A stretch of 64,000 nt of DNA, from positions 148,453 through 212,452 of the forward strand of contig CABVRX010000002.1 in the NCBI GenBank assembly GCA_902500825.1. Direction: 5' to 3'. This document shows, piece by piece, positions 32,986-41,700 of this stretch. Numbering within the stretch: the stretch's first letter is position 1; each line of letters opens with the position of its first letter. Under the pieces are notes generated by a model. That model saw only the letters and a list, made by a program, of their open reading frames with translations, did not search any database and was not told where the DNA came from. The translations under genes and the position numbers were made by a program. The stretch comes from an uncultured Nitrospira sp. (GTDB taxonomy: Bacteria > Nitrospirota > Nitrospiria > Nitrospirales > Nitrospiraceae).

Positions 32986-34209
32986 TCAGTATGTGAAGAA
33001 GCCTCGTCCGGCCCTCTGACCCGTAAATCCGGCATCCACCATCCGCCGTAGCATCGGAGCCGGCCAGAATCGCAGTCCGAGCGTTTGAGCGAAGTCTTCA
33101 AGCTCGTGCAAGACCTGATCGATGCCGAGCCTATCCGCGAAATGCAGCGGGCCTTCTTTATCTTTGGGGTAGCCGATTCCTGCTACCATTGCGAGATCAA
33201 TGTCGCGTGCCGAGGCGACCCCTTCCTGGAGCGCCGTGACGGCCTCGTTCGTCATCGCCAGGAGGAGTCGCGATTGACTCCATCGTGTTGCAGCATGATC
33301 GGCATGCGATCTGAATTCTTGGAGGAGCCGTTCAAGTCCTTGATCGCGACCGCCTTCCTCTCCGCTGACATAGTCGTAGAAGCCATGGCCAGATTTGACT
33401 CCCAGACGACCCGCCTTCACCATGGTTTCAAGCAGGGGAGCCGGCGTCATGCGAGGTCCGTAGCTGCGGTACAGAATGCGCGCGACTTCGAGCGAGATAT
33501 CGAGACCCACCGCATCCAGAAGGGCGAGCGGGCCGACCGGCATGCCAAATGACACCATCTCCTGATCGATTTCTTGTAGCCCGGCCTCCCCTTCCTGCAA
33601 GGCGCGAACGGCTTCATTCACATAGGCCATCAGGACACGATTGACTAAAAACCCTGCACATTCCTTCACCACGATCGGCAGTTTCCCGATGCTTTCGATA
33701 AAATTTACCGCGTCGTCGAGGGTTTGTGAGGTGGTCGCGAGTCCAGGTACCACCTCCACGAGCCGCATCACATAGGCTGGATTGAAGAAGTGAAGTCCGA
33801 CGACTTTATCCGGCCTTGTCGTCGCGGCACCAAGAGCTGAGACGGACAGTGCTGATGTGTTACTGGCTAGGATGGTGCCTCGCGGGCAGATCTGGTCCAA
33901 CTCCTGAAAGACCTGTGCCTTGAGTTTTAAGTCCTCCGATACTGCCTCAATCGCCACATCGACGTCCTCGAGGCCGGCCAAACCATTGGAAGCGGTGACG
34001 AGCAACATCTTTTCCTCAAGCTGCTCGGCGCTCATTTTCCCCTTGTCTACCCGTGCCTGATAGATCGCTCGCACCGAATCAAGCCCTCGTTTCACCAAGG
34101 TCTCATTTACATCGGCCAACACGACAGGTAGTCCGGCATAACTCACCACTTCCGCGATCTGTGCGCCCATCGTTCCCGCGCCAACGACTCCGACCTTATA
34201 GATGTACAT
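32986..34209 (-). CDS. 3-hydroxyacyl-CoA dehydrogenase with duplicated C-terminal domain
   Basis: 407 residues. The NAD-binding N-terminal domain begins YKVGVVGAGTMGAQIAEVVS. It is followed by one standard C-terminal helical domain (to about 290) and a second copy of that domain (about 310-405). The active-site segment [17 protein letters not shown] supplies the catalytic His. The single-copy form, 3-hydroxybutyryl-CoA dehydrogenase, occurs at 46238. The duplicated form is common for longer chains. It oxidises L-3-hydroxyacyl-CoA to 3-ketoacyl-CoA with NAD+. ATG 34209 follows GGAGAG. Confidence 0.92.
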   Translation of the reverse strand: MYIYKVGVVGAGTMGAQIAEVVSYAGLPVVLADVNETLVKRGLDSVRAIYQARVDKGKMSAEQLEEKMLLVTASNGLAGLEDVDVAIEAVSEDLKLKAQVFQELDQICPRGTILASNTSALSVSALGAATTRPDKVVGLHFFNPAYVMRLVEVVPGLATTSQTLDDAVNFIESIGKLPIVVKECAGFLVNRVLMAYVNEAVRALQEGEAGLQEIDQEMVSFGMPVGPLALLDAVGLDISLEVARILYRSYGPRMTPAPLLETMVKAGRLGVKSGHGFYDYVSGEEGGRDQGLERLLQEFRSHADHAATRWSQSRLLLAMTNEAVTALQEGVASARDIDLAMVAGIGYPKDKEGPLHFADRLGIDQVLHELEDFAQTLGLRFWPAPMLRRMVDAGFTGQRAGRGFFTY

Positions 34210-34287
34210 GTTGCGCTCTCCGTTCTGCGTCATCCCAACATCATGACGGATTCCATTCGTTCGAATAACGATTGACGCGTAGGCAGT

Positions 34288-35478
34288 TCATACTTGCTCC
34301 AACACCATTGCCGCCCCTTGCCCTCCGCCCACGCACAAAGCCACCGCTCCCAGCGCGGCGCCCCGTCGGCGCATTTCGTGCAGGAGCGTGATGACGAGAC
34401 GTGTGCCGGTCATCCCGACCGGATGGCCCAAGGCGATGGCGCCGCCGTTGACGTTGACAAGGTCTCGTTTAAGTCCCAACAGCCGCTCAACGGCCAGGTA
34501 CTGCGCCGCGAATGCCTCGTTCACCTCGATCAGGTCGAGATCCGCCAGCTGGAGGCCGGCTCGTTTGAGTGCTGCCGGGAGTGCATCCACCGGGCCAATG
34601 CCCATACGCGCAGGGTCTACACCTACGAAGGCATAACTTCTCACACGCCCGAGCGGATGCATGCCCAAATCCCGTGCTCGTTCGGCCGACATAACGATCG
34701 CAGCGGCAGCGCCATCGTTGAGCGGACAGCTGTTACCCGCGGTGACGGTACCTCCCTCCTTGAAGAGTGGAGGATAGAGGGTCAGTTGGGGTTCGGTCAG
34801 ACCGACGTTCGGACCCTCGTCTTGAGTCATTACGAGAGGAGGAACTTCGCGTCCAGCCACCGATTTGGATACGGTAACGGGCACGATTTCTTCCTTCAGC
34901 CGACCCTCCCGCATGGCTCTGAATGCGCGACGATGGCTGTCGATTGCGAAGCGGTCCTGTTCTTCCCGACCGATCCCAAACTCTTCGGCCAAGGTTTCCG
35001 CGGTCCGGCCCATGAGCTGGCCGCAGACCGGGTCCGTCAATCCTTCCCAAATGCTGTCGACGAACTCGGCATGCCTCAGCCGCTTGCCCCAACGCATGTC
35101 CCGAGAGAGATAGGGAGCGCGGCTCATATTCTCGACGCCGCTCACGATCTGTACATCGGCATCCTGACTTTGGAGGTTCTGGTAGGCGTTTACAAACGGC
35201 TGAAGGCCGGACGAACAGTTGCGCTGCACGGTATACGCCGGTGTCGTGAGAGGGAGTCCGGCTTGTAGAGCGACGACGCGGCCGATGTTATACGCATCGC
35301 TCGGCTGGCCGACACAGCCGACGATCACTTCGTCGATTAGCTTTGGGTCGAGGCCGGTCTGTGCGATGACTCCGCGCACCGCGACTTCCCCGAGTCTCTG
35401 GGCCGGCATATCCTTCAACGCGCCGCCGAAGTTCCCGATCGGAGTTCGTACGCCGGCCACAATCACGAGGTCTTTCAT
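34288..35478 (-). CDS. Thiolase (acetyl-CoA acyltransferase)
   Basis: 396 residues. The catalytic Cys is in NCSSGLQPFVNA (RNCSSG), the His in NVNGGAIALGHPVGMTG and the second Cys in ALCVGGGQG. It cleaves 3-ketoacyl-CoA with CoA to acetyl-CoA and a shortened acyl-CoA, or runs as acetoacetyl-CoA thiolase. The start ATG 35478 gives MKDLVIVAGVRTP, the standard thiolase opening; the longer GTG 35493 start would overlap the ligase gene by four bases. It completes a beta-oxidation spiral with the genes on either side. Confidence 0.92.
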   Translation of the reverse strand: MKDLVIVAGVRTPIGNFGGALKDMPAQRLGEVAVRGVIAQTGLDPKLIDEVIVGCVGQPSDAYNIGRVVALQAGLPLTTPAYTVQRNCSSGLQPFVNAYQNLQSQDADVQIVSGVENMSRAPYLSRDMRWGKRLRHAEFVDSIWEGLTDPVCGQLMGRTAETLAEEFGIGREEQDRFAIDSHRRAFRAMREGRLKEEIVPVTVSKSVAGREVPPLVMTQDEGPNVGLTEPQLTLYPPLFKEGGTVTAGNSCPLNDGAAAAIVMSAERARDLGMHPLGRVRSYAFVGVDPARMGIGPVDALPAALKRAGLQLADLDLIEVNEAFAAQYLAVERLLGLKRDLVNVNGGAIALGHPVGMTGTRLVITLLHEMRRRGAALGAVALCVGGGQGAAMVLEQV

Positions 35479-35489
35479 GAGGAGCCCCG

Positions 35490-37205
35490 TCACACCGCTT
35501 GATGTTGAACCACCTCGGCTTCGCTCGCGCGAACGGCCTCATCGCGCATCGCCCGGCGAAGCACCTTGCCGATGACCGTTCGCGGCAGCTCCGGGCGAAA
35601 CTCTACGGTCGACGGAATTTTGTACCGCGCCAGCAATCCGGCGCAGTGCATAATCAATTCTTGCTCAGTGACGAGCAATCCGGGCTTCGTCACGACGTAG
35701 GCTTTAACGGCTTCACCATAGTCGTGATCTGCTACCCCAATGACGGCGGCTTCGGACACCGCCGGGTGTTGACGCAAGACTTCTTCAACTTCCCGTGGAT
35801 ACACTGTCTCACCACGCGACTTGATGATGTCCTTCTTGCGATCGACGAAGTAGAAGTATCCCTGATCGTCCCGGCGAACGAGGTCGCCGGTATACAACCA
35901 TCCGTCGCGCAGTACGGCGCGTGTTTCGTCTTCCTTGTTCCAGTATCCCTGCATTACTTGTGGTCCGCGCACGATCAGTTCACCCGTTTCGCCTTCCGGC
36001 ACTTCCGTCAGTCCAGCGTCGGAATCCACCACTCGCGCCTCGGTATCAGGGAAGGGAAGTCCCATCGAGCCTCGCGGATGGGCTCCGTTCAACGGATTGC
36101 AATGGGTCGCGGGACCGGCTTCGGTCAAGCCATAGCCTTCCGATATCCTGGTTCCGCTGAGATTTTCGAACCGTTCCTGAACATCGGCAGGAAGCGTGCT
36201 GGCTCCACTCAAACACACGCGCAGCGATCGTAAGTCATAGCGGCCGGCATCCGGATGTTCGACGATCATCGAGTACATCATGGGCACACCCGAGAACATG
36301 GTAATGCGATGCGTATCAATCGCCTTGATGACCTCGTCCGCATGGAACCGAGGGAGGAGGACTATAGGACAGCCTGTCGCGATGGCTAGGTTCTGACAGG
36401 TGGCCTGACCGTAGCAGTGGAAAAATGGAATAGCGCCGAGAAAGATTTCCTGTCCTTCACGAAAATCAGGGGACCAATATCGGCCTTGTAACGTGTTGAC
36501 GACCACATTACGGTGCGTGAGCATCACACCTTTCGGCGTTCCCGTCGTTCCACCGGTGTATTGCAGTTGTGCAAGATCGGTCGGTCGCACGTGAGGCAGA
36601 TCGGCGGAATGATCCGTATCCATTGAAGCGCTTGCACACAGGAGATCGAGGAAGTCGTATACGGAGGGGGTTTTCTCGACGGATACCCATCGTTTGGCTA
36701 ACCGAGCCTTGATGGGATAGAGAAGTTTTTTGAAGAAAGGGAGATAGTCCTGAATGCCGGTGATGATGATCCGCTTTGGAAGCGTAGTTGCCTCCTTCAC
36801 CGTTCGAACGCGAGGATAGAGCAGGTCAAGAACCACCATCGTGTCCGTTCCTGCATCGGTCAGCTGCGTCTGAATTTCTCGTTCGACGTAAAGTGGATTG
36901 GTCGGCACCACGACGGCGCCGGCTTTTTGAATTCCGTAATAGGCGATAACCGTCTGTGGAATATTTGGAAGCATGATGGCGACTCGGTCGCCTTGATTGA
37001 CACCGAGTTGTCGCAGTCCAAGCGCAAATCGAGTCGTGAGGTTGTCCAGTTCTCCATAAGAGATGCAGGTACCATAAAACAGAAGTGCAGGGGAGTCCGC
37101 GAAACGGTCCGATGAGTGTCGCAGGAGATCCGGTACGGTCCATGCCGGATAGTTGAGGCTTGACGACACCCCGGAATCATATCGGCTGACCCAAGCGCGC
37201 TGCAT
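35490..37205 (-). CDS. Long-chain fatty-acid-CoA ligase (FadD-like)
   Basis: 571 residues of the ANL adenylate-forming superfamily. The P-loop-like motif is YTGGTTGTPKGVMLTHRN, the aromatic/SETE-like motif is GYGLTEAGP, and the hinge and A8 region is YTGDLVRR to DIIKSRGETVYPREVE. The adenylation Lys lies in RTVIGKVLRR near the end. It activates fatty acids to acyl-CoA through acyl-AMP. Gene order (ligase, thiolase, hydroxyacyl-CoA dehydrogenase, hydratase, two dehydrogenases) supports a fatty-acid role. It begins 17 bases after the di-iron protein gene. Confidence 0.9.
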   Translation of the reverse strand: MQRAWVSRYDSGVSSSLNYPAWTVPDLLRHSSDRFADSPALLFYGTCISYGELDNLTTRFALGLRQLGVNQGDRVAIMLPNIPQTVIAYYGIQKAGAVVVPTNPLYVEREIQTQLTDAGTDTMVVLDLLYPRVRTVKEATTLPKRIIITGIQDYLPFFKKLLYPIKARLAKRWVSVEKTPSVYDFLDLLCASASMDTDHSADLPHVRPTDLAQLQYTGGTTGTPKGVMLTHRNVVVNTLQGRYWSPDFREGQEIFLGAIPFFHCYGQATCQNLAIATGCPIVLLPRFHADEVIKAIDTHRITMFSGVPMMYSMIVEHPDAGRYDLRSLRVCLSGASTLPADVQERFENLSGTRISEGYGLTEAGPATHCNPLNGAHPRGSMGLPFPDTEARVVDSDAGLTEVPEGETGELIVRGPQVMQGYWNKEDETRAVLRDGWLYTGDLVRRDDQGYFYFVDRKKDIIKSRGETVYPREVEEVLRQHPAVSEAAVIGVADHDYGEAVKAYVVTKPGLLVTEQELIMHCAGLLARYKIPSTVEFRPELPRTVIGKVLRRAMRDEAVRASEAEVVQHQAV

Positions 37206-37222: not shown

Positions 37223-37960
37223 CTAACTTGCACGCCGCTGAGCTAAGTCAGGCCATGTGTTGTCTGATCTCGTTTTCCGTTGCTCCAAACCTGCCCAGAA
37301 CCCTTCCAGATAGCCGAGCACCGCATCGACGCCGGAGCGAAAGTCATCTTCATCCTGGTTGGACATCCTGGTCTCATCCGTTCCTTGCACGGCTGCTACG
37401 GCGTGCTCCATTGCCTCCTCGTGAGTGATCTCAAGTTGCCGGTGAAACGTGAAATAGGCGAGGTCCATCTGGGGATAACGCGAGAGTTTTAGGTAGGTCA
37501 GGCCCGGAATCAAATGATCCCACATCGTGATGGCCATGTTCTCAAGTCCGAAGGATGCTCCCAGCGCCTTGGCGTGATTGCCGTCGGTGTAGAGACGTTC
37601 CATCCCCTCTATGTAGGCGCGGGTCGATGGGAGCATCGGTCGCGTCATGGCCTCATGTATGTCGATACCCACGGATCGCAAAAAGTTGCGATAAAGGAGT
37701 TCATGCCGATGACTGGTTTGTCCGTCGCCCAATTCGGAATACAGGACCTTGGTCAGTTCATCGGCCACCCGCTCGTCCTCGGTATTTACAAGTTGAGACA
37801 TCAGGATGCGGGGGAAAAAACGGGAAAAGTTGTAGAACTCAAGTGCGAACTCCTTGAGGTGAAAGTCGGTGAGATCTCCTGCTCGGAAGCGATTCAAGTA
37901 CACATTATTGATGGCACCATGCTTGAGCACCAGTCGTCTCATTTCTTGATGAAACGTCAT
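37223..37960 (-). CDS. Haem-oxygenase-like di-iron protein (HDO family)
   Basis: 245 residues, all helical. Likely metal ligands align by spacing with those known for CADD/UndA-type proteins: E76 and H84 in ELGDGQTSHRH, E140 in SFGLENMA, and H173, E177 and H180 in FTFHRQLEITHEE (Glu at 177 where CADD has Asp). Such proteins activate O2; UndA decarboxylates fatty acids to alkenes, CADD takes part in 4-aminobenzoate synthesis, and others act on amino acids. Substrate here is unknown. It is the first gene of the leftward operon, just upstream of a fatty-acyl-CoA ligase. ATG 37960 follows GGAGG; an upstream ATG (38014) is inferior. Confidence 0.75.
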   Translation of the reverse strand: MTFHQEMRRLVLKHGAINNVYLNRFRAGDLTDFHLKEFALEFYNFSRFFPRILMSQLVNTEDERVADELTKVLYSELGDGQTSHRHELLYRNFLRSVGIDIHEAMTRPMLPSTRAYIEGMERLYTDGNHAKALGASFGLENMAITMWDHLIPGLTYLKLSRYPQMDLAYFTFHRQLEITHEEAMEHAVAAVQGTDETRMSNQDEDDFRSGVDAVLGYLEGFWAGLEQRKTRSDNTWPDLAQRRAS

Positions 37961-38014
37961 GGGTACCTCCGAATCTCCTTTTGCCGTCTCGCGATTGAAG
38001 TTTTTATTAATCAC

Positions 38015-38043
38015 ATAATATAGTTTTTGAATTACAATGACAA
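38015..38043 (-). promoter_or_regulatory. Predicted sigma-70 promoter of the leftward operon
   Basis: On the - strand TTGTCA (38043-38038) and TATTAT (38020-38015) are separated by exactly 17 bases. The start point would fall about 38008, some 50 bases before the ATG of the di-iron protein gene. The surrounding sequence is markedly AT-rich. Confidence 0.55.
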
Positions 38044-38118
38044 TAGGGTGACGATCCTTAATATCCTTTAAAGCGTAACTTATCTGGTCGGTTTATAAAG
38101 ATTAAGCCTGAAAGCGTC

Positions 38119-38147
38119 TTGTATTGAGTTATAAATAATAGTACTAT
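38119..38147 (+). promoter_or_regulatory. Possible sigma-70 promoter of the rightward operon
   Basis: TTGTAT (38119-38124) and TACTAT (38142-38147) are 17 bases apart, placing the start about 70 bases before the HPPD-like gene. The -10 element lies within the palindrome at 38135-38150. Weaker than the leftward promoter. Confidence 0.4.
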
Positions 38148-38150
38148 TAT
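38135..38150. promoter_or_regulatory. Perfect 16-bp palindrome, candidate operator
   Basis: ATAATAGTACTATTAT is its own reverse complement and lies in the AT-rich space between the two divergent catabolic operons, overlapping the candidate rightward -10 box. Such placement suits a repressor dimer, possibly the XRE-type protein encoded at 27980-28942. Binding is not shown by sequence alone. Confidence 0.45.
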
Positions 38151-38225
38151 ATTATTAAATATGAAATGTGAATTTAAGAAAGAGTTCCTCGTGTCAAGAG
38201 TAAGAGACGGCGATGTGGAGGCTTC

Positions 38226-38819
38226 ATGAAACAGACAACCGGTTTTGACCACGTCACTCTCTGTGTCGAAAATCTTGAAGCTGCAGAATTCCTGTTCGCC
38301 AAAATCCTGGGATTTGAAGTGATCTGGTCAGCGCGGGATGTGGGAAGTCACACCTCATCGATGGATACTGTCGTCGTACAACGTGGAACCGCCAAGATTG
38401 CCCTCATGCAGGGTCGGGACAAGGCGGGGAAGTCCCAAATCAACGAATTCATAGAAAGGTATGGACAGGGCGTGCAGCACGTTGCTTTCGAAGTCGAAGA
38501 CATCGATGCGGTGTGTCGCGAGTGGGAGGCACATGGCGTGAAATTCAGCGGACCGGTGAAAGAGGGAAGAGACGGATTCGGGCCGCTTAAGCAACGCTTC
38601 ACTTATCCCCTTTTCCCAAACACCGGACTCTTCATTGAACTGACCCAACGGCAGCATGGAGAAGAAGCTGCGAGGACGTTTGTCCGAAGTACGGTGGAGT
38701 CGCTGTATAAGGACATCGAGCGAGATCAAGCTTCCGGGGTCCAGAAGACCATCATTGATTACGACTCATCTTCGATGCTCAGGCAAAAGCAAAAGAAGCC
38801 GCTGAAAAAGGCATCGTAA
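38226..38819 (+). CDS. Single-domain 4-hydroxyphenylpyruvate dioxygenase-like protein (VOC fold)
   Basis: 197 residues corresponding to the catalytic C-terminal half of HPPD. The three Fe(II) ligands are visible: H9 (FDHVTLC), H85 (GVQHVAFEV) and E138 (GLFIELTQR), with the HPPD-type segment SQINEFIERYGQGVQH. Normal HPPD is about 350-400 residues with two VOC domains; here the first is absent. HPPD converts 4-hydroxyphenylpyruvate to homogentisate, and the next two genes (homogentisate dioxygenase, fumarylacetoacetase) are the following steps, which supports that activity. A related single-domain dioxygenase with another substrate is possible. Start ATG 38226 follows GTGGAGG. It is the first gene of the rightward operon. 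Confidence 0.78.
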   Translation: MKQTTGFDHVTLCVENLEAAEFLFAKILGFEVIWSARDVGSHTSSMDTVVVQRGTAKIALMQGRDKAGKSQINEFIERYGQGVQHVAFEVEDIDAVCREWEAHGVKFSGPVKEGRDGFGPLKQRFTYPLFPNTGLFIELTQRQHGEEAARTFVRSTVESLYKDIERDQASGVQKTIIDYDSSSMLRQKQKKPLKKAS

Positions 38820-38850
38820 CCGCGCGATCCACTCTTTGTGGGAGCCGGCC

Positions 38851-39957
38851 ATGTATCTCAAGCGGAGAGGAAAAGTTCCCAACCAGGCCCATGTCGGAAT
38901 TCCCGAAGGGCTGTATGAAGAAGAGCATGGACGAAACGGCTTTGCGGGTTCGGTTTCTCATCTCTACCGGACACATCCCCCCACAGCGTGGATTACTATC
39001 GAAGGGAAGCTGAGGCCGCGGGCCTTTGCCTGTACGCAGATTTCCGAGACCGCATTATCCAGTACCACGCAATCACTGTTGATGATGCGAAGCCAGGATG
39101 TGAGTCTCCACATTTCCTGCCGACGAGAGACGATGCCCTATTTCGTGCGCAATGCGGATGGAGATGAAGTCCATTTCGTGCATCGGGGCAGAGGCAGGTT
39201 TGAGACCGATTATGGCGTTCTTCCTTACGAGTCTGGCGATTACGTGGTGATCCCAAAAGGTACGACCTATCGAAATCACGTCGATGAAGGAGCTTGTTTT
39301 GCTCTTATTGTCGAAACGCCCGTTCCTATGATGGTGCCGGACCGAGGAGCTTTGGGACAACATGCGTTGTTCGATAAGGGCGTGTTGCTTGCTCCTGAAC
39401 TGGAGGCAGTGGAACCGGTGGAAACCGGATTACAAACGTGGGAGGTCCACATCAAGCGTCAAGGCGACTGGACGCGAGTCGTTTATCCCTTTTACCCCAT
39501 GGATGTGATCGGATGGAAAGGGGATCTCTGGGTTGCGAAGCTGAACGTGCGGGACTTCCGGCCGGTCGTCAGTCCTCGGTACCATCTGCCGCCGAGCGTC
39601 CATCAGACGTTCCAAGCCGGAGGATGCCTCATTTCCACTTTTGCTCCAAGGCCGTTGGAAAGTGATCCGGAAGTCTTGCGCGTGCCCTTTTATCATCGAA
39701 ATACCGACTACGATGAAGTGCTGTTTTATCACGATGGAGAATTCTTCAGCCGCGCGGGGATTCAAGCAGGGATGCTCACGTTACACCCGCAGGGTATCCA
39801 CCATGGACCGCAACCGCAGGCGGTCCAAGCCAGCAAAGCGAAGAGGCACACTAGCGAAGTAGCGGTGATGATCGAATCCAAAACTCCCTTTACGGTTCAA
39901 CCGGAGATGGAGCCGGTGGAAATCAAGGACTACGCAATGAGTTGGAGCCGTCGATGA
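38851..39957 (+). CDS. hmgA: Homogentisate 1,2-dioxygenase
   Basis: 368 residues of the cupin-fold homogentisate dioxygenase family, somewhat shorter than the 430-440 residues of proteobacterial and animal enzymes. Ligand segments for Fe(II) are present: the His and Glu in PFYHRNTDYDEVLFYHDGEF and the His pair in TLHPQGIHHGP. It opens homogentisate to maleylacetoacetate. ATG 38851 follows GGGAG and gives the usual MYLKRRGKVPNQAH opening; a GTG at 38836 would add five residues. It overlaps the fumarylacetoacetase gene by four bases (ATGA). Confidence 0.9.
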   Translation: MYLKRRGKVPNQAHVGIPEGLYEEEHGRNGFAGSVSHLYRTHPPTAWITIEGKLRPRAFACTQISETALSSTTQSLLMMRSQDVSLHISCRRETMPYFVRNADGDEVHFVHRGRGRFETDYGVLPYESGDYVVIPKGTTYRNHVDEGACFALIVETPVPMMVPDRGALGQHALFDKGVLLAPELEAVEPVETGLQTWEVHIKRQGDWTRVVYPFYPMDVIGWKGDLWVAKLNVRDFRPVVSPRYHLPPSVHQTFQAGGCLISTFAPRPLESDPEVLRVPFYHRNTDYDEVLFYHDGEFFSRAGIQAGMLTLHPQGIHHGPQPQAVQASKAKRHTSEVAVMIESKTPFTVQPEMEPVEIKDYAMSWSRR

Positions 39958-40967
39958 AGCTCGTCAGTTTTCGAATCAGAACTCCCATCGGTACCTTCAC
40001 AAGGGTGGGAGCGATACACGACCAACGAATAGTGGACTTGAATATGGCCTATGCCCGTTGGCTGGCGGATCAACAGGAAGCACAACCGCATCGATTAGCC
40101 AATGCGCAGGTTCCGCCGACTATGTTGGAGTTTCTCGAAGGAGGATCTTCTACCCTAGCGGCAGCCCGCCGAGCGAAGGATTATGTGACCGCGCTTTTTC
40201 CATCAGGCAAGGGTCCATTTGGTGAAACGATCATGTATGCGGCCCCTGATGTTCAACTCGCTGCTCCTCTTCCCAATCCACCTTCGCTTCGTGATTTCAT
40301 CGCGTTTGAAGACCACATTGCAGCGACGTCGAGGAAGCGGGGACAGCCGATTCCGCCGGAGTGGTACAAGGCTCCGGTGTACTACAAAGGGAACCATCGC
40401 ACGATCATGGGACCGGACGAGGCGCTGCCCTGGCCGCTGGAGACGACGAAGTTGGACTATGAGTTGGAGCTGGCCTGTGTCATTGGGCGGAAGGGCAGGG
40501 ACATCTCCGAACGACTGGCAGAAGAATACATTGCCGGTTACACGATCATGAATGACTTCAGCGCGCGTGATATTCAGTTCCAAGAAATGGCATGCCGACT
40601 GGGACCGGCGAAGGGGAAGGACTTTGCGACTGCGCTGGGCCCCTGTCTCGTAACCCCCGATGAGATTGCGGATCTCGGTGCCTTGACGATGATTGCAAGG
40701 GTGAACGGAGAAGAATGGTCGCGAGGACGATTCGGGACGATCCATTGGTCTTTTGCTCAGATGATCGCGCACGTATCGCGAGGCGAAACGATCTATCCGG
40801 GAGATGTCTTTGGTTCGGGGACGGTGGGAGGTGGCTGTGGGCTGGAACTGGACCGTTACTTGAAGTCGGGTGACATGGTGGAGTTGGAAATTCAGCCGAT
40901 CGGAATTCTAAGGACTCGCGTTGTGAGTGCAACGCAAGGGGGTGAAGATGCTGGCCCGCACGATTGA
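39954..40967 (+). CDS. fah: Fumarylacetoacetase-family hydrolase
   Basis: 337 residues of the FAH fold. Metal-binding acids appear in order as DYELELACVIG (the ExE pair) and NDFSARDIQ, and KGKDFATALGPCLV is the family's substrate-side segment. It would cleave fumarylacetoacetate, or maleylacetoacetate directly, to acetoacetate plus fumarate or maleate. No maleylacetoacetate isomerase is in the window, so direct hydrolysis or a distant isomerase is needed. Coupled to hmgA by a four-base overlap, and its end overlaps the next gene by 20 bases. Confidence 0.9.
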   Translation: MKLVSFRIRTPIGTFTRVGAIHDQRIVDLNMAYARWLADQQEAQPHRLANAQVPPTMLEFLEGGSSTLAAARRAKDYVTALFPSGKGPFGETIMYAAPDVQLAAPLPNPPSLRDFIAFEDHIAATSRKRGQPIPPEWYKAPVYYKGNHRTIMGPDEALPWPLETTKLDYELELACVIGRKGRDISERLAEEYIAGYTIMNDFSARDIQFQEMACRLGPAKGKDFATALGPCLVTPDEIADLGALTMIARVNGEEWSRGRFGTIHWSFAQMIAHVSRGETIYPGDVFGSGTVGGGCGLELDRYLKSGDMVELEIQPIGILRTRVVSATQGGEDAGPHD

Positions 40968-41700
40968 GCAGGCCCTCGCAGAGGTGGTGGATCGGCATCG
41001 CGTGCTTTATGAAGACCAGACGATCGATGCAAGACTGAGAGCCATCATCCGTGCAGGTGCCCACACCAATGTCACCGAGGACGAGGTGCTTCATATTCTG
41101 AGGAGGTCCCGATCCGTCTTTTTCGATACTCACGTGGAGGTTGTGTCAGGACACCACACGGCGACATATTTGCGTTTCGAATCCATCGCTCGTTTTCCTG
41201 AATTGATCCGGCAGGTGGCTGGAGATATGGCGGGCTGGATTAGGCGGGCGTTTCAACACCGCTCAATAACCGGACTCGTAGCGACCAGTTCAGCAGCGGA
41301 GTTGCTCGCACAAGAAATTGTGGATGTCCTTCACGACACGATGGGATTGCGTGTGGCACTGACGCCGTACAGTTGCGAGACGGGACGGATCGGGACGGAC
41401 ATCAACGTCGGCGTGATCAAATCCGGCGAGCGCTTTTTGGCGCTCAACGATGTCACGACGCGTGGCAATTGTGTCAGCAAACTCGGCAAGGTCATCACCG
41501 ACACAGGAGGTGTGTCGGCGGGGATGATGGTCTTTGCCCGCCGCGACAGCGGTCAGTTCCCATTGATGAACGAATTAATCGCACGACATCCGTTCTACTA
41601 CACGACGGACCTCGATATGCCGCAATGGGAGCCGGCGTACTGTCCACTGTGCAGCGAAAAAAAGCCCTTGTTGTCATGGAAGGATATGCCGGCTTTGTAA
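40948..41700 (+). CDS. Phosphoribosyltransferase-like protein with C-terminal CPxC motif
   Basis: 250 residues. The central domain looks like a type I phosphoribosyltransferase: GLVATSSAAELLAQ, then FLALNDVTTRGNCVSK at the PRPP-loop position (normally VxVDDVxTTGxS), so the loop is altered (ND for DD, RG for TG). The chain ends in CPLCSEKK, half of a zinc site. A purine or pyrimidine role is not obvious in a tyrosine-degradation operon and the altered loop makes catalysis uncertain. It may be a regulatory or repurposed PRTase. ATG 40948 lies within the end of the fah gene after GGGGGTGAAG. Confidence 0.6.
   Translation: MLARTIEQALAEVVDRHRVLYEDQTIDARLRAIIRAGAHTNVTEDEVLHILRRSRSVFFDTHVEVVSGHHTATYLRFESIARFPELIRQVAGDMAGWIRRAFQHRSITGLVATSSAAELLAQEIVDVLHDTMGLRVALTPYSCETGRIGTDINVGVIKSGERFLALNDVTTRGNCVSKLGKVITDTGGVSAGMMVFARRDSGQFPLMNELIARHPFYYTTDLDMPQWEPAYCPLCSEKKPLLSWKDMPAL

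Follow-up and report, generated by a model that had tools for sequence, protein, structure and literature searches.

We examine a tyrosine-degradation-like locus in a 64,000-nucleotide stretch of the genome of an uncultured Nitrospira sp. (hereafter, the window). Its features, together with three gene clusters from other genomes used for comparison, are collected in Table 1. At the centre is a forward-strand open reading frame (the VOC gene) with an ATG start and a GGAGG-like ribosome-binding site shortly 5' of it. Its product has 197 residues and a single VOC domain by domain search, and an alignment places H9, H85 and E138 at the two histidines and one glutamate of the HPPD catalytic domain; all three are invariant across the single-domain proteins and in 33 of 33 HPPD/HMS C-domains. 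A first-pass annotation, made from the letters alone, had described a 197-residue single VOC domain with these ligands, adjoined by homogentisate dioxygenase and fumarylacetoacetase; the reading frame, domain search and alignment agree with the former, and HmgA-type and FAH-family genes do lie directly 3'. It had further called the protein the catalytic VOC domain of HPPD, which holds as far as the match to the C-terminal half goes, but the protein is less than the whole domain: an HPPD insertion of about 30-35 residues before the third-ligand strand is absent from the alignment.

Table 1. Features at the window locus and at the loci compared with it (window positions unless a locus is named).
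Feature	Location	Strand	Remarks
Acyl-CoA ligase, thiolase, hydroxyacyl-CoA dehydrogenase	32986-37205	-	Beside the operon
Haem-oxygenase-like diiron oxidase, BesC/CADD-like	37223-38014	-	Divergent from VOC gene; adjoins it throughout Nitrospirota
AT-rich divergent promoter region, diiron oxidase/VOC operon	38015-38225	.	Consensus matches only
Single-domain VOC protein, HPPD/HMS-like	38226-38819	+	197 aa; H9, H85, E138; C-terminal helix about 154-169
Homogentisate 1,2-dioxygenase HmgA, short form	38836-39957	+	Start perhaps ATG 38851; Pfam HgmA_N and HgmA_C above cut-off
Fumarylacetoacetate-hydrolase-family protein (FAH), likely last step	39942-40967	+	Pfam PF01557, 3.1e-57
Phosphoribosyltransferase-like protein	40927-41700	+	Weak pyrE_Therm match, without Pfam match; conserved synteny 3' of FAH
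G241 HPPD cluster: HPPD, FAH, HmgA, thiolase, acetoacetyl-CoA synthetase-like	L146:6264-11287		Replaces single-domain form
Chorismate mutase-VOC fusion	L176:7692-8474		NRPS/pabB cluster, Sinorhizobium meliloti plasmid
Cassette of VOC, MocR-type PLP aminotransferase and Ldh-family oxidoreductase	L177:7917-10778; L221; L222; L271; L272		

The HmgA keeps the three Fe ligands of the YHRN...E...HGP motif when aligned with solved HGDs (match 1.8e-14). Both HmgA and FAH genes are short or divergent forms that fall under the NCBIfam equivalog cut-offs. Between 37900 and 38900 we count 7 promoter-like sites where 1.0 would be expected (consensus matches only), and 3' of the phosphoribosyltransferase-like gene lie the E1 alpha, E1 beta and E2 genes of a 2-oxo acid dehydrogenase. 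The acyl-CoA ligase, thiolase and hydroxyacyl-CoA dehydrogenase on the other flank could serve the disposal of acetoacetate. The VOC gene itself is neither a sequencing error nor a truncated copy: proteins of like length occur in dozens of genomes, and dN/dS against six orthologues is about 0.05-0.12, which indicates purifying selection.

In HPPD, a drug and herbicide target, the catalytic half is coupled to another VOC domain that is inactive. The best NCBIfam model for the VOC protein is 4HPPD (TIGR01263), matched over its C-terminal positions (90.9 bits, E 1.1e-25). This is below the curated cut-off of 277 bits, as is the match of a two-domain HPPD from another Nitrospirota genome, G241 (252.6 bits). 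The alignment shows the HPPD C-domain ligands, the SQI...GVQH and LxQxF...FxE blocks and the C-terminal helix, while HPPD N-domains and epimerases are without both the insertion and that helix. The VOC protein shares Q71, Q123, F152, L160 and E165 with 33 of 33 HPPD/HMS C-domains, and these residues do not characterise N-domains or epimerases. An AlphaFold2 model (mean pLDDT 81.8, pTM 0.75; weak at 116-118, 144-151 and the tail) has HPPD/HMS catalytic domains as its top fold matches, with Z of 20.1 (3zgj, 9kp0) and 20.0 (3isq) over 162-170 residues at rmsd 2.1-2.2; Z is 15.8 for the best HPPD N-domain and 14.8 for the best epimerase. Foldseek is concordant, with HPPD/HMS catalytic domains nearest. 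The gene product belongs to the HPPD/HMS group as a conserved member with a single domain. A decayed remnant of HPPD, or a VOC protein of the methylmalonyl-CoA epimerase or glyoxalase type, is a scarcely credible alternative: there is sequence likeness to epimerases at about residues 70-93, but the epimerase model (TIGR03081) gives 53.8 bits against a cut-off of 114.95, epimerases are without the C-terminal HPPD helix and the glutamines, and the protein is under purifying selection and in our tree lies outside the epimerase clade without nesting in HPPD.

How widespread is this arrangement? A VOC orthologue of similar length occurs in 34 of 296 Nitrospirota genomes and HmgA in 35 of the 296, namely the same 34 and one (G241) with a full-length HPPD instead; these are counts of related genomes and not of independent events. 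The orthologues, at 69-91% identity, sit beside the same genes across the phylum. Nitrospira genomes, N. moscoviensis among them (78% identity), are the nearest relatives that share the arrangement. Among 42 Nitrospirota-type loci (L034-L075), all those sufficiently flanked have the order diiron oxidase-VOC-HmgA-FAH, and three of these have a wider gap 5' of the VOC gene. Four more Nitrospirota matches, weak at 25-29% identity, proved to be other VOC proteins. The VOC orthologue and HmgA are both absent from at least 20 listed congeneric genomes. In G241, which belongs to the same order as the window's genome, a 387-aa two-domain HPPD, FAH, HmgA, a thiolase and an acetoacetyl-CoA synthetase-like gene form one run, and its FAH is 49% identical to that of the window.

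The first-pass annotation had put the gene in the HPPD position of the operon and had named a full-length HPPD elsewhere in the genome, together with a different activity for this protein, as evidence that would count against its reading. A search of the window's genome (99.78% complete) found no full-length HPPD: TIGR01263 picked out the VOC gene and one place at chance level, among thirteen VOC places in all (the VOC gene and 12 others). The N-terminal half of HPPD had no match in that genome at E up to 1, on which a split HPPD with its N-half encoded elsewhere was rejected. The slot is indeed filled by the single-domain HPPD-like protein, a phylum-wide pattern (34 of the 35 genomes with HmgA).

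Outside the phylum, HmgA proteins 41-45% identical to that of the window stand in full-length HPPD-HmgA-FAH order in Vibrio, Aeromonas, Variovorax and Tistrella. The HmgA of Photobacterium GJ3 (49% identity) has FAH, glutathione-transferase-like (probably MaiA) and phenylalanine-hydroxylase-like genes alongside, by our own reading of these neighbours, and no HPPD within 4 kb. In Bacillus thuringiensis, mutants show that a 390-aa HmgA encoded in an hppD-fahA-hmgA operon acts on homogentisate, and this organism has no identifiable maleylacetoacetate isomerase (PMC6193087). MaiA over the cut-off is absent from seven Nitrospirota genomes, and phenylalanine hydroxylase was not found in five genomes.

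One neighbour, the diiron oxidase, is not accounted for by plain tyrosine breakdown. Its close orthologues (62-100%) are found in the same 34 genomes as the VOC gene and in G267, whose contig stops 45 bases past the diiron oxidase gene and short of any VOC position. The enzyme is closer to BesC than to CADD; as a CADD-type tyrosine-consuming enzyme it was rejected, as the sacrificial Tyr27 position is Leu, with Y39 adjacent, in our reading of the alignment. The G241 operon with the full-length HPPD lacks a close orthologue of the oxidase. Conceivably the VOC protein is a dioxygenase whose substrate is some other 2-oxo acid or a phenolic compound, and the adjacent diiron oxidase may be required in the pathway, which would finish with ring cleavage of the HGD type. 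Such a pathway would fit the constant adjacency of the oxidase and its absence beside the HPPD of G241, as well as the missing phenylalanine hydroxylase and MaiA; however, the pocket residues are of HPPD type and the HmgA resembles those of ordinary HPPD operons, and we judge this explanation unlikely. A more specific proposal, that the VOC protein turns an arylpyruvate into a product other than homogentisate, as its HMS-like pocket would suggest, and the diiron oxidase completes a new two-enzyme route to HGD-type ring cleavage, replacing HPPD in Nitrospira, strikes us as very unlikely.

Where the protein belongs among its relatives was addressed with a tree of 110 rows and 160 columns (LG+C20). 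The 33 HPPD/HMS C-domains in it form one clade (100/98) that leaves the Nitrospira VOC proteins outside, in a clade of their own (100/100) that is sister to the C-domains at 94/73 (not starred). NRPS-type single-domain VOC proteins make a third clade (97/87), and the epimerase clade excludes the Nitrospira proteins. An AU test of joining the two single-domain clades gives p 0.40, which leaves their union neither demonstrated nor rejected, and the long N-domain branch leaves the base of the tree uncertain. Since the VOC protein falls outside all 33 sampled HPPD/HMS C-domains, no sampled HPPD gave rise to it by recent truncation, and the tree speaks against recent loss of the N-domain from any sampled HPPD lineage. 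The earlier idea of a "minimal form", if taken to mean a trimmed HPPD, finds no support in this placement.

Members of the second single-domain clade (about 180-215 aa) came from rhizobia, Paraburkholderia, Vibrio europaeus, G579 and G439 in a search of plasmids and 331 Pseudomonadota genomes. No phage relatives of the VOC protein were found, and 149 actinomycete genomes had weak VOC matches only, without a strong single-domain relative. The loci of this clade adjoin NRPS genes and/or a PLP aminotransferase, joined in V. europaeus, G579 and G439 by an Ldh-family oxidoreductase. Sinorhizobium meliloti T073 carries a fusion of chorismate mutase and the VOC domain; pabB lies 5' of it, and genes for a prephenate dehydrogenase-family protein and an aminotransferase come next on its 3' side. 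The VOC-aminotransferase-Ldh cassette looks like an alternative hydroxyphenylglycine route, and the gene order suggests arylpyruvates (4-hydroxy- or 4-aminophenylpyruvate) as the substrates of the clade.

Comparison of the pocket, covering the Ser-Asn-Gln-Gln network and the Phe and Asn residues of the final helix, reveals a mixed picture. Residues Q71, Q84, Q123, F125, F136 and F152 of HPPD are kept in the VOC protein, and five positions are changed: Ser to T48, Asn to M61, Asn (Asn423) to T156, Phe to V157 and Phe to Y161. Where the Arabidopsis HPPD has Asn282 and that of Streptomyces avermitilis has Phe337 and Phe341, 31 of 31 HPPDs have N, F and F and 14 of 14 Nitrospira proteins have M, V and Y; two HMS-like rows, L182 and L185, of which gene context (an alpha-hydroxy acid oxidase) backs only L185, have L/V, I and Y. 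In S. avermitilis HPPD, F337I lowers activity by about 98% with some hydroxymandelate made, and F341Y lowers it by about 80% (PMC3739788); N282A cuts the efficiency of Arabidopsis HPPD about 160-fold (PMC6750108). The HMS feature of an aliphatic or small residue at the F337 position with Tyr at the F341 position is present here as V157 and Y161. These residues, with M61, would lean toward HMS, and the gene context toward HPPD.

A single-domain enzyme of HMS type would carry out benzylic hydroxylation of 4-hydroxyphenylpyruvate or a related arylpyruvate, and the neighbours would process its product or obtain homogentisate elsewhere. Besides M61, V157 and Y161, the top fold match (an HMS mutant, tied with HPPD) and the other single-domain clade, whose PLP aminotransferase and Ldh oxidoreductase follow the logic of 4-hydroxyphenylglycine synthesis, speak for it. 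Yet the conserved neighbours of the VOC gene include no mandelate or hydroxymandelate oxidase, no mandelate dehydrogenase and no phenylglycine aminotransferase, the VOC-HmgA linkage is strict, relatives have a full-length HPPD in this slot, and the other single-domain clade has different residues at F136, Y161 and T156. We regard an HMS-type activity as improbable. HmgA in the phylum sample always comes with either the VOC protein or a full-length HPPD, and for this reason we let context outweigh residues: judged from sequence and gene order, the VOC protein probably, though by no means surely, makes homogentisate as a natural single-domain enzyme of the HPPD/HMS group.

On the homogentisate reading, a single Fe(II) would be held by H9, H85 and E138 in one VOC barrel that the C-terminal helix closes. 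Tyrosine would be converted by a transaminase to 4-hydroxyphenylpyruvate, whose keto-acid group the VOC protein probably binds; O2 would then be used for decarboxylation and for ring hydroxylation with a shift of the side chain. The presumed product, homogentisate, would pass to the adjoining HmgA and FAH-family enzymes. A homodimer may supply the stabilisation that the absent N-terminal domain would otherwise give.

If this is true, the one-domain form, together with the clade from peptide clusters, would show HPPD's second domain to be dispensable. The proteins would also be small model enzymes for the switch between HPPD and HMS products, and their clades would be outgroups for asking if a protein of this kind was duplicated to give HPPD. 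In the literature searched, whose coverage was incomplete, we came across no report of an HPPD with one domain.

Among the closest known systems, hydroxyglutarate synthase HglS/FLO7 is a VOC enzyme that uses Fe(II) and belongs with the intramolecular 2-oxo acid oxygenases (PMC7286885). The VOC protein would share this type, but HglS (DUF1338; 6w1k) acts on 2-oxoadipate, belongs to a different family and gives a fold match of only Z 11.9. Methylmalonyl-CoA epimerase has a single VOC domain, the metal ligands and local motif similarity in common with it, and differs in having neither HPPD-type glutamines nor the C-terminal helix and in forming a separate clade. The single-domain VOC proteins of NRPS clusters (rhizobia, V. 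europaeus, G579, G439) are alike in having one domain, no insertion, the HPPD C-half as best model, the C-terminal helix and Val at the F337 position; they are a separate clade at about 30-34% identity, with a PLP aminotransferase, Ldh oxidoreductase or NRPS as neighbours and, in one case, the chorismate mutase fusion. HMS (2r5v, 3zgj, 7yvv) shares the fold, the Fe site and, at the positions of F337 and F341, an aliphatic residue and Tyr respectively, but is two-domain and in L185 adjoins an alpha-hydroxy acid oxidase, where the Nitrospira protein adjoins HmgA and FAH. HPPD (TIGR01263; 3isq, 1cjx, 9kp0) shares the catalytic VOC barrel, the His-His-Glu Fe site, the pocket glutamines, the C-terminal helix and the HmgA/FAH operon; the VOC protein has one domain rather than two, no insertion and three HMS-like pocket positions, and stands outside the C-domain clade. 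Because of its one domain and its place outside the HPPD clade, we class it as a variant and not as a plain HPPD: it is without these two features that help define HPPD as a family, and it probably works like one.
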